Shown one piece after another: positions 3,395-37,309 of a DNA stretch of 47,555 nt. Numbering within the stretch: the stretch's first letter is position 1; the number at the start of each line of letters is the position of its first letter. Under the pieces are notes generated by a model. That model did no database searches. It was not told the origin of the DNA and saw nothing but the letters and a program-made list of their open reading frames with translations. The translations under genes were made by a program, and so were the position numbers. This stretch comes from a virus: positions 1-47,555 of IMG/VR virus record IMGVR_UViG_3300010391_000062, one strand, 5' to 3'.

Positions 3395-4468
3395 GTGACG
3401 CTGGACACGATGGTCGATCAGGAGAAGCTGGCTGAGGCGGGCAAGATGCTCGCCACGAAGTCGGCGTTCATCCGGAGTGCGGCCAAGGTGTCCGGCAAGG
3501 ACTACGCGACCGAATCACCGCCCGAGAAGGCCACGCAGAGCGAGGCCGAAGGACGGGCATTGAGCGGGGGATCGGTTCCTCCGCAGGCAAGGACGGAGCC
3601 TGCAATCCCGTCAGGGCCGGTGTCAGGAGAGCCCGGAAGGGCTGTGCCTGAAACACCGTCCGCCGAGCCTGCTCGCGTTTCCGAGCCGTCTGCCAAGCCC
3701 GAGGTCGTGCCCGCCACCCAGCGGATCACGATCAACGGCAAAGAGGTGGACGTTCCCCGGGAGCATGTGGAGCAGATCCTCGGAAAGGCCCAGACTGCGG
3801 CGCCCGCGGCGCCAGCGGGGTTCCACCCGTTGGCGACGGCAGCGGAGTTGCGGCGATGGGCCGAGAACGAAGCGAGTCCGGAAGAGCTTGCAGCCTTCAT
3901 GGCTCTCATGGGGAAGGGAACGCAGCCGGCGCAAGCAGAGCGGCAGACGCCCCAACCCCAGGAGGACTACGAGGCTGCTCCCCGCCAGACCGCTCCGCCC
4001 GACTACGCGCAGCTTCAGAAGCAGGTCGCCGAACTGACGGCCCGCGAGACGATGCGCGTACGACAGGCGGAAGCGGCCCAGCAAGAGCGATGGCTCGACT
4101 CCCAGCTCGCGAAGTACCCCGTCTTCAAGGACGAGGCCATTCGCAGCCTGGGAAAGAACGCCATCGTGGGGACGCTCACCGCGAACCCGCGCCTCAACCC
4201 TGTCCAGGTCATCGCGGAGCACGCCGCGCAGTACCAGGCATGGGTGAGGAGCGTGGCCCGCGAGGAGCAGGTGGCTTCCGCGAGGGCTCCTTCTTCTCCC
4301 CGGACGGTGGCGCCCCCCGGAGGCTCAGCCTCACGGGGTGGATCGCCAGCGGTTCCAGAACGATCTGGAGCTACGACCGCTGGCAAGCTCTCACCGGCTG
4401 ACGCGCTCCTCTCGGGGGCAATCCACCGAGAGGTCGCACAAGCCTTCAGAACCCGCCAGCGCGCGTAG
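3395..4468 (+). CDS. Scaffolding protein candidate
   Basis: A 357-residue protein from GTG 3395 lies immediately upstream of the major capsid gene, the usual place for an internal scaffold that shapes the procapsid. The N-terminal part is Pro/Ala/Glu-rich and disordered; the middle carries ITINGKEVDVP followed by a helical, Gln-rich coiled-coil-like region (about 195-285, starting near PPDYAQLQKQVAELTA). The C-terminus is basic and helical, as in scaffolds that bind the capsid inner face. The assignment rests on position and composition. An alternative is a head minor protein. Confidence 0.6.
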   Translation: MTLDTMVDQEKLAEAGKMLATKSAFIRSAAKVSGKDYATESPPEKATQSEAEGRALSGGSVPPQARTEPAIPSGPVSGEPGRAVPETPSAEPARVSEPSAKPEVVPATQRITINGKEVDVPREHVEQILGKAQTAAPAAPAGFHPLATAAELRRWAENEASPEELAAFMALMGKGTQPAQAERQTPQPQEDYEAAPRQTAPPDYAQLQKQVAELTARETMRVRQAEAAQQERWLDSQLAKYPVFKDEAIRSLGKNAIVGTLTANPRLNPVQVIAEHAAQYQAWVRSVAREEQVASARAPSSPRTVAPPGGSASRGGSPAVPERSGATTAGKLSPADALLSGAIHREVAQAFRTRQRA

Positions 4469-31107: not shown

Positions 31108-31658
31108 GCTCCCTCCACTCTCGGCGGCTCCGGGTAGTGACGGCGAACGATGTCGGAGCATAGCGCGAGGATCTCGGCTCGTTTCGCAGCCCCCGCAGCC
31201 CCCGCAGCCCACGCAGCCCCCGCAGCCCACGCAGCCCACGCAGCCTCCGCAGCCCCCGCAGCCCACGCAGCCCCCGCAGCCCTCGCAGCCCCCACAGCCC
31301 ACGCAGCCCCCGCAGCCCTCGCAGCCCACGCAGCCCTCGCAGCCCCCACAGCGCGCGCCTCAGATGGCTCGCGCGCCCACGCTTCGCTTGCCTCAATGCA
31401 GAGTCGTGGTCGATCCTCGCCAGAGGACACCAGAGGGAGCGCCAGCCGCGCGCACTCGCAAGCCGCGAGCGTCAGCGGTCGGCGCTTCTCGCTCCACGGC
31501 GCGCCTGCATCGACGGTGCCGATGAGCCACAACATCCACGAACCGTCTCGGCACTCGCGCCACGCCGCCGCGTAGTCTGGCTGCGTGCGAGCCCACTCCA
31601 CAGCCTCGCGGCAGGCGTTGAGCTTGACGAGCGCGTCGGACCAGTGAGGCTCAGGCAT
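31104..31658 (-). CDS. Ala/Trp/Arg/Gly-rich repeat protein
   Basis: A 184-residue protein; ATG 31658 is preferred because AAAGGA lies seven bases upstream, and ATG 31676 is an alternative. Residues 1-95 form a normal domain ([20 protein letters not shown], then [16 protein letters not shown]). Residues about 105-160 are a tandem AAX array where X is almost always Trp, Gly or Arg. Residues 160-184 return to normal sequence ([20 protein letters not shown]). Such (AAX)n segments probably form long helices with a Trp/Arg face. I have seen this type in other phage genomes; its role is unknown. Confidence 0.75.
31185..31355 (-). repeat. 9-bp tandem array coding (Ala-Ala-X)n
   Basis: About 19 tandem copies of a 9-bp unit (on the plus strand CGCAGC followed by CCC, CCA, CCT or once CTC). 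Read on the coding strand the variable triplet is NGG (GGG, TGG, AGG), giving Gly, Trp or Arg, plus one GAG (Glu). Nearly all variation is in the first base of that triplet. The array lies fully inside the gene at 31104-31658 and keeps the frame. Confidence 0.8.
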
Positions 31659-36416: not shown

Positions 36417-36707
36417 ATGAAGAACAAGCCCAAGGCGTCGAAGTCTCGCTCTCCCCTTCAGGTCGGCAACGCGGTCCTCATCCGCACGGTGACGCACTAC
36501 CACACCGGGCGCATCGTCGAGATGGACGAGCACAGCGTCGTTCTCGAAGACGCAGCGTGGATCGCGGACACGGGCCGGTTCGGGACCTTCCTGAAGACCG
36601 GCGAACTCAAGGAAGTCGAACCCTTCCCGGGGCTCGTGTCGGTGGCCCGGGGATCCATCGTGGACGTGACGGCCTGGCCGCACCCTCTGCCCCGCGAGCA
36701 GAAGTAG
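36417..36707 (+). CDS. Conserved-type small phage protein (VRTVTxYxTGR family)
   Basis: Ninety-six residues from ATG 36417. VGNAVLIRTVTHYHTGRIVE, then VVLEDAAWIADTGRFGTFLK and a C-terminal PLPREQK are features of a widespread uncharacterised small beta-barrel protein of phages. It starts its own promoter-led unit. Function is unknown. Confidence 0.75.
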   Translation: MKNKPKASKSRSPLQVGNAVLIRTVTHYHTGRIVEMDEHSVVLEDAAWIADTGRFGTFLKTGELKEVEPFPGLVSVARGSIVDVTAWPHPLPREQK

Positions 36708-36711
36708 ACCC

Positions 36712-36909
36712 GTGACCGCCGCAGTCCTGAGGATCGGCTACGAACGGCCGCGGTCGGGGTCGCGGTCGCGGTCGCGGTCGCGGTCGGGGTCGTGGTCGCG
36801 GTCGGGGTCGTGGTCGTGGTCGCGGTCGTGGTCGCGGTCGTGGTCGCGGGCGGGGTCGTGGTCGTGGTCGCGGTCGGGGTCGTGGTCGTGGTCGTGGAGC
36901 AGCCGGTGA
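36712..36909 (+). CDS. Arg/Trp/Gly-Ser dipeptide-repeat peptide, copy 1
   Basis: Sixty-five residues from GTG 36712. A short head (MTAAVLRIGYERP) is followed by 24 X-Ser dipeptides where X is Arg, Trp or Gly, then WSSR. Composition is extreme: cationic and Trp-rich, with no acidic residue after the head. The head, tail and repeat type recur in the gene at 37136-37309. Cationic Trp-rich peptides are often membrane-active, but Arg-Ser repeats also bind RNA; no function is shown. The other frames of the array are also open (Val/Ala/Gly forward; Asp-Arg/His/Pro reverse), so the frame choice rests on the conserved head and the stop/start coupling. Confidence 0.6.
   Translation: MTAAVLRIGYERPRSGSRSRSRSRSGSWSRSGSWSWSRSWSRSWSRAGSWSWSRSGSWSWSWSSR
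36751..36894 (+). repeat. NGGTCG hexamer array, 24 copies
   Basis: Twenty-four tandem hexamers of the form NGGTCG, with N being C, G or T; one copy reads CGGGCG. In the gene frame each unit is NGG-TCG, that is Arg/Gly/Trp then Ser. Only the first base varies apart from that one unit. Confidence 0.9.
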
Positions 36910-37139
36910 AGCGATCCTGTGATCTCATGGCGCTCTTCCGGTCTTCTGGGCGATCCATCGAACGCGCGGCCGGAGAGGCGGGCCTCTCCGAGAAGACGTT
37001 TCGCCGGCTCATTGCCAGAGAGAAGCGCAAGTGGCACTGGCGTGTGCTCATGGCTGCGGCGCAGTGGGCGAGCGCGCGATCCGGGCGCAAGGTGACGGAG
37101 GAGGACGTGTGGGACTGGCTCCAGGGAGACAAGACATGA
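36906..37139 (+). CDS. HTH protein between the two repeat peptides
   Basis: Seventy-seven residues from GTG 36906, overlapping the stop of repeat copy 1; its stop overlaps the ATG of copy 2. RSIERAAGEAGLSEKTFRRL then IAREKRKWHWRVLMAAAQW looks like a helix-turn-helix with a basic recognition region. The C-terminus (VTEEDVWDWLQGDKT) is helical. It is locked translationally between the two repeat peptides, so the three probably act together. Confidence 0.6.
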   Translation: MKRSCDLMALFRSSGRSIERAAGEAGLSEKTFRRLIAREKRKWHWRVLMAAAQWASARSGRKVTEEDVWDWLQGDKT

Positions 37140-37309
37140 CCGCCGCCGTTCTCAGGATCGGCTACGAACGGCCGCGGTCGTGGTCGCGGTCGCGGTCGGG
37201 GTCGTGGTCGCGGTCGTGGTCGTGGTCGTGGTCGGGGTCGTGGTCGTGGTCGTGGCCGCGGTCGGGGTCGCGGTCGGGGTCGCGGTCGTGGTCGTGGAGC
37301 AGCCGGTGA
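37136..37309 (+). CDS. Arg/Trp/Gly-Ser dipeptide-repeat peptide, copy 2
   Basis: Fifty-seven residues from ATG 37136. It has the same 13-residue head (MTAAVLRIGYERP) and WSSR tail as copy 1, around 20 X-Ser dipeptides (one is Trp-Pro). The head codons differ at several silent positions while the protein is identical, which suggests selection on the peptide itself. It is the last plus-strand gene before a converging minus-strand operon. Confidence 0.6.
   Translation: MTAAVLRIGYERPRSWSRSRSGSWSRSWSWSWSGSWSWSWPRSGSRSGSRSWSWSSR
37175..37294 (+). repeat. NGGTCG hexamer array, 20 copies
   Basis: Twenty tandem NGGTCG units (one TGGCCG), N being C, G or T, in a different order from the first array. 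The flanks (GGATCGGCTACGAACGGCCG before, TGGAGCAGCCGGTGA after) are identical to those of the array at 36751-36894. Confidence 0.9.

Follow-up and report, generated by a model that had tools for sequence, protein, structure and literature searches.

X-Ser repeat peptides form a widespread phage family often encoded directly behind a predicted Sm-like protein

Introduction

Two small genes in the 47,555-nt viral sequence IMGVR_UViG_3300010391_000062 (this whole stretch is hereafter called the window) encode peptides in which arginine, tryptophan or glycine alternates with serine, and a gene for a helix-turn-helix (HTH)-like protein lies between them. The locus raises the questions of whether such "X-Ser" peptides are genuine proteins or by-products of a DNA repeat, which gene is their true partner and what they could do for the virus. 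Here we follow the peptides through uncultivated viral contigs, phage records and bacterial genomes, and weigh the explanations for them.

The locus in the window

The features of the locus are listed in Table 1. Their coordinates and translations agree with the sequence-only reading of this DNA, which had described twin peptides with the same 13-residue head (MTAAVLRIGYERP), 24 and 20 X-Ser dipeptides and a WSSR tail identical in both, locked by overlapping stops and starts to a 77-residue HTH-like protein (GTGA between peptide 1 and the HTH-like gene, ATGA between that gene and peptide 2). At the DNA level the two heads differ by three bases, all at silent third positions, and by the GTG or ATG start. 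Both peptides terminate in SR, peptide 1 after 24 X-Ser and one RA, peptide 2 after 20 X-Ser and one WP. The arrays consist of about 21–25 hexamer GGTCGN units and were detected independently by Tandem Repeats Finder. Since a GGAG sits within the WSSR tail, the identity of the tail may be partly cis-regulatory or merely copied; a comparable tail, AAGGAGCAGCGAATG, at locus L026 carries AAGGAG ahead of the next ATG. Apart from the X-Ser arrays, the 9-mer CGCAGCCCC is repeated in tandem 18.7 times at 31185–31352 of the window. The portal protein of the virus has a distant match to phages of actinobacteria, and the matches of its terminase are weak.

Table 1. Features of the X-Ser locus, in window coordinates
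Feature	Position	Strand	Description
Sm-like gene, recurrent upstream partner of X-Ser peptides	36417..36707	+	96 aa; family HMM, predicted fold
X-Ser peptide gene 1	36712..36909	+	65 aa, GTG start, 4 nt past the Sm-like stop codon
Head of peptide 1, MTAAVLRIGYERP	36712..36750	+	head class common to 26 loci
(X-Ser) array 1	36751..36900	+	24 X-Ser dipeptides and one R-A; hexamer (NGGTCG)n
GGAG, Shine-Dalgarno-like, within WSSR tail	36896..36899	+	6 nt 5′ of the GTG of the HTH-like gene; from sequence
HTH-like gene between both peptides	36906..37139	+	77 aa, GTG start
AGGGAG, Shine-Dalgarno-like, ahead of the ATG of peptide 2	37123..37128	+	from sequence
X-Ser peptide gene 2	37136..37309	+	57 aa, ATG start
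Head of peptide 2, same amino acids as head 1	37136..37174	+	three silent differences and the start codon
(X-Ser) array 2	37175..37300	+	20 X-Ser dipeptides and one W-P

A family of X-Ser peptides in viral contigs

The search for the head next to low-complexity tails in other phages, which had been proposed along with the first description, was run and returned relatives in many viral contigs. All three matches of a first head pattern were chance on inspection. A head-plus-array pattern gave three true relatives among viral contigs, each behind a homologue of the window's Sm-like gene; its matches in bacterial contigs (L006–L014) were chance when inspected. A looser version gave about a dozen matches, nearly all genuine, and a head-only pattern added L030–L032. 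With an array-only pattern at least 120 stretches were found, most of them with a small frame composed of a short head, an X-Ser run and a stop; a few resemble chance low complexity (e.g. L034, L049, L061, L073, L095, L119, L121 and L141). The scan of uncultivated viral contigs, in which the array pattern itself required GGTCGN, thus yielded more than 100 stretches, in most of which a short head precedes an (X-Ser)n frame. As many unrelated viral contigs repeat this head, the frame of the array and its position, the arrangement is not due to chance. A long hexamer array at L081 (1343–1839, reversed strand) is unlike the family, running through several frames (Gly-Arg, Val, X-Ser) with no clear head.

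A head class of 26 loci, to which both window peptides belong, follows the consensus M-x-A-[AC]-x-x-R-x-G-[YF]-[ED] before the array; further head classes exist behind a second Sm-like family and elsewhere. The window peptides show the features of the family, namely an (X-Ser)n run with X mainly R, W or G in an open frame with an early stop, and peptide 1 also has the Sm-like gene directly upstream. An annotated example is UOF78858.1 of Myoviridae sp. ctTUS972 (MW202573.1), beginning MNAAIIRAGLDASWSWSWSWSRSRSW and labelled hypothetical protein in its record, which forms a pair with the Sm-like UOF78857.1. It resembles the window peptides in following a gene of the same Sm-like family directly, here with an ATGA overlap, and differs in being a single copy in another phage. 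A protein search using the X-Ser peptide itself gave no match, as expected of low complexity; a DNA search of phage records gave none either, and neither did plasmids. We hold with high confidence that the X-Ser peptides are a widespread phage family.

The reading frame and the peptide are conserved

Among 102 arrays with flanking DNA, a start codon lies within 30 codons upstream in 92% of cases in the X-Ser frame, compared with 26% and 29% in the other frames, which argues that the X-Ser frame is the coding one. Likewise, a stop is found within 3 codons past the array in 53% of cases in this frame and in 9–10% in the others. In the 26 aligned heads, which close with Gly-Tyr/Phe-Glu/Asp, mean entropy is 0.77, 0.68 and 1.61 bits at codon positions 1, 2 and 3. 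Moreover, at L030 (28% GC) the same peptide is written with AGT for serine and AGG for arginine, serine is TCA at L032 and its codons are mixed at L031. The variation of third positions in the heads together with the other serine codons in relatives indicates that the conserved thing is the peptide. Selection at the protein level, which the sequence-only reading had argued from silent changes in the window's heads, is thus upheld by the heads, by starts and stops confined to the X-Ser frame and by the alternative serine codons. Arrays shifting frame freely in relatives, which would have spoken against it, were not what we found, the X-Ser frame being retained with head and stop.

Nonetheless, within the TCG arrays the silent third base of serine is no freer than the other constant bases, so that repeat homogenisation or a constraint at the DNA level acts too. 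The dominance of TCG in our counts is in part a bias of the GGTCGN search.

Composition seems to be kept, order not

The residues at X were R 912, W 864 and G 812 times, with about 120 others. In the 96 longer arrays the shares are R 36%, G 31% and W 33%, one array only being without one of the three, and the dispersion is 1.6 times multinomial. Neighbour correlation in these arrays is about that of shuffled ones and internal repeats are slightly longer than in shuffles. The arginine codon is nearly exclusive within an array: 115 of 150 arrays use CGG without AGG, and in 16 the codon is AGG, with CGG scarce or absent. Arrays of the AGG type become more frequent as GC falls (rho -0.31, p 9e-5; 150 arrays). 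The variable base of the array codon is C/G/T or A/G/T. Four equally likely bases would make one half of the X residues arginine; the observed third points to a constraint on the amino acids. Composition, rather than exact order, seems to be what is kept in the tail. A more far-reaching idea, which we regard as a long shot, is that an R:G:W ratio of about 1:1:1, with serine in every second position, is selected while order is actively reshuffled through the first base of NGG among three letters, the polymer and an Sm-like ring together forming viral RNA-protein condensates.

The recurrent partner is a predicted Sm-like protein

The gene upstream of peptide 1 defines a family, here called A, whose HMM matches 67 loci. 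Its AlphaFold model (pLDDT 93.3) found in Foldseek the S. pombe Lsm1-7 complex as best match (E 7e-4) and archaeal Sm proteins next, and the matches listed were Sm/LSm proteins or complexes containing such proteins. VIA gave Z 9.3 against the archaeal Sm protein 1i8f over 65 residues (rmsd 1.9). The viral models matched were unnamed phage proteins, DUF6948 proteins and one protein named Sm-like. Judged by its model, the product is an Sm barrel protein, and in the family alignment an invariant Gly and an R-G-S-I stretch resemble, by eye, Sm motifs. Sequence searches of family A against Pfam, PHROG, NCBIfam and PDB gave no match worth naming. Sequence comparison gave no relation between a solved cyanophage Sm-like protein and the partner.

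Many arrays that are without A have a second family, B; it received no convincing name from Pfam, PHROG or NCBIfam and is related to A in hhalign (probability 96.9, E 1.7e-10). An Sm-like gene of either family is found near 60 of the 85 arrays with sufficient upstream DNA (A 46, B 14, neither 25), on contigs that had been selected by the presence of an array; some of the 25 are probably chance low-complexity sequence. Commonly the Sm-like gene is directly upstream of the X-Ser gene with an ATGA or GTGA overlap. Of 60 A pairs, 38 show this 4-nt junction, as do 16 of the 28 B rows, loci matching both models being counted twice. Relative to the Sm-like frame, the X-Ser frame occurs in all three relations.

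The HTH-like gene and tandem copies

The trio of peptide, HTH-like protein and peptide, which the sequence-only reading had put forward as a system, was not supported: the recurrent partner is the Sm-like gene, which that reading had not singled out, and no relatives of the HTH-like protein were found in phages or in the scanned viral contigs. The protein matches Pfam HTH_28 with E 0.005, under the cut-off, and a single-sequence model (pLDDT 74.5) predicts four helices with weak matches to HTH DNA-binding domains. In another phage (L026/L153) two X-Ser copies flank a DHH-like gene, named by eye from its sequence. Elsewhere (L040, L043, L071, L098, L125, L144) two to six X-Ser genes follow one another, often coupled by ATGA. 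Of 143 complete X-Ser genes, 45 overlap with the beginning of a next frame of at least 25 codons. At L040 (2524–3824, reversed strand) six X-Ser genes stand in tandem; their heads are alike (MIILKANEW) and most of them are coupled by ATGA. As copies elsewhere stand in tandem or around other genes, the HTH-like gene is more likely a passenger between duplicates than a core component, and the best explanation of the window is an X-Ser gene duplicated around it, resembling the tandem duplications of other phages.

Array turnover, assembly and hosts

L047 and L133 are 98.6% identical over 2.7 kb and have identical heads, yet their arrays are unlike in length and order. At the end of the L133 contig the array is joined to another X-Ser head, which suggests that assembly from short reads can fuse sequences of different phages where they have arrays in common; the L133 array may itself be such a chimera. 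Many contigs break off inside arrays. Nearly all of the contigs are metagenome assemblies and the arrays are about as long as a read, so array order and length may be partly wrong.

The phage records searched yielded only two genomes with the family, both from Manatee Spring. At L156 (MW202825.1), around 3570–3650, a family B gene is followed by two X-Ser frames in tandem that continue into AGATCGGAAGAGCGTCGTGTAGGG, apparently a sequencing adapter; this record carries a contamination flag. Among 237 Myxococcota genomes, one (G551, contig 152, L150) has a family A gene together with an X-Ser gene. Their contig is 92.7 kb long, and matches to an endolysin and to a DNA methyltransferase lie near the pair; this is likely a prophage, or a phage binned into the genome. 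Family A had no match in sampled genomes of Pseudomonadota, Planctomycetota, Chloroflexota and Actinomycetota, a result of little weight.

Relation to known systems

We found no known family that the X-Ser peptide fits, and no description of its pairing with an Sm-like gene. The earlier reader knew of no such arrangement, and this stands for the literature searched on serine/arginine/tryptophan repeats, phage Sm-like proteins and RG-rich condensates, subscription papers lying outside its coverage. SR proteins, eukaryotic splicing factors with an RRM and an RS domain of Arg-Ser dipeptide runs, share these runs with the X-Ser peptides. Unlike them, the X-Ser peptide is a short separate gene of bacterial viruses in which Trp and Gly are as common as Arg, and a Pfam search of the window peptides found no RRM and no other domain. 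Diversity-generating retroelements combine a reverse transcriptase, a template repeat and adenine-directed variation; in X-Ser arrays the variable base is C/G/T or A/G/T.

Eukaryotic SmD1, SmD3 and SmB have RG-rich tails. The partner gene is akin to the Sm/LSm/Hfq superfamily in its predicted Sm fold and in that Arg-rich or disordered tails accompany Sm cores; it differs in having no match to known Sm sequence models, and in that the low-complexity part is a separate peptide of R, W or G alternating with S. Hfq has a disordered C-terminal domain (PMC5606850). A published parallel is that of Borg extrachromosomal elements, where Sm proteins carry disordered amino-acid tandem repeats, fused at the N-terminus in units of 4, 8, 12 or 17 residues (PMC9879509). 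The likeness to the window pair is that Sm proteins of such elements are tied to fast-evolving repeats predicted to be disordered (PMC9879509). However, the X-Ser repeat is not part of the Sm reading frame. It has a gene of its own downstream, with a separate start and head, a variable relative frame, a two-residue period and three residues at X.

What the X-Ser peptides may do

The reading we tentatively prefer, although with moderate to low confidence in its mechanism, is that the X-Ser peptide acts alongside a phage Sm-like RNA-binding protein, as its positively charged, aromatic and disordered partner. This reading is favoured by the recurrent Sm-like pairing and by the cationic, aromatic, Gly/Ser-rich composition. 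The Sm-like protein would assemble into an RNA-binding ring, to which the peptide may be recruited by its head, while the overlapping stops and starts would couple translation. By way of numerous weak contacts of Arg and Trp, the tail could bind RNA or raise its local concentration, perhaps forming condensates, and the pair would control phage or host RNA, with selection keeping the composition of the tail and not its exact sequence. A tail that is merely a nearly neutral microsatellite, expanded behind a functional head and tolerated for its solubility-compatible composition, would agree with the large differences in length and order among arrays, including L047 and L133, and with the somewhat longer internal repeats. 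We consider it unlikely, for a neutral tail would be expected to end up with one or two kinds of unit and to lose its frame or stop, whereas 95 of 96 arrays retain R, G and W at about one third each, in near-random order, in many phages and behind several head classes; moreover, the L133 array, cited for the change of order, may be an assembly artefact. Improbable too is that the array acts as DNA or RNA, for instance as a G-rich repeat to which a protein binds, which folds up or at which recombination is concentrated, with the peptide as by-product. Five of its six bases (GGTCG) are constant in nearly all arrays found, from 37 to 73% GC, the silent serine base is as constant as the others and many contigs end within arrays. 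Yet GGTCGN was demanded by the scan, relatives found by their heads carry AGTNGG or TCANGG, close starts and stops occur in the X-Ser frame alone and the heads are kept as peptide.

Arg/Trp-rich composition is known from cationic antimicrobial peptides, and with net charges of about +12 and +9 and 10 Trp each, peptides 1 and 2 could be imagined as membrane-active agents that either assist lysis or are aimed at the host or at competing phages. By eye, however, neither has a hydrophobic segment or a signal peptide, a serine at every second residue is unusual for such agents and the linked gene is Sm-like, all of which makes this quite improbable. The array might also be a C-terminal tail of the Sm-like protein itself, reached where stop and start overlap, through a programmed frameshift or read-through. 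In fact, most pairs have the 4-nt overlap, and in that geometry the Sm frame reads the array as Gly-Arg repeats, reminiscent of the RG tails of some eukaryotic Sm proteins. Nevertheless, the heads have start codons of their own, ATG or GTG, and are kept at the peptide level, and the relative frame is not fixed; frameshift fusion as a general rule is ruled out since the frames vary, and the idea as a whole is highly improbable.

Conclusion

If the X-Ser peptide turned out to be no more than a tail that has come away from the Sm-like protein, we would regard it as a variation on something already known. As a disordered partner in its own right, the X-Ser tail would be a natural example, and an unusually clean one, of a disordered protein whose composition is seemingly kept and whose order is not. 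The X-Ser family, on more than 100 uncultivated viral contigs, and an unnamed branch of the Sm fold would together point to an RNA-based layer of phage-host control. Such a layer would have escaped notice because searches mask repeat peptides and because the phage records searched contain hardly any members of the family.
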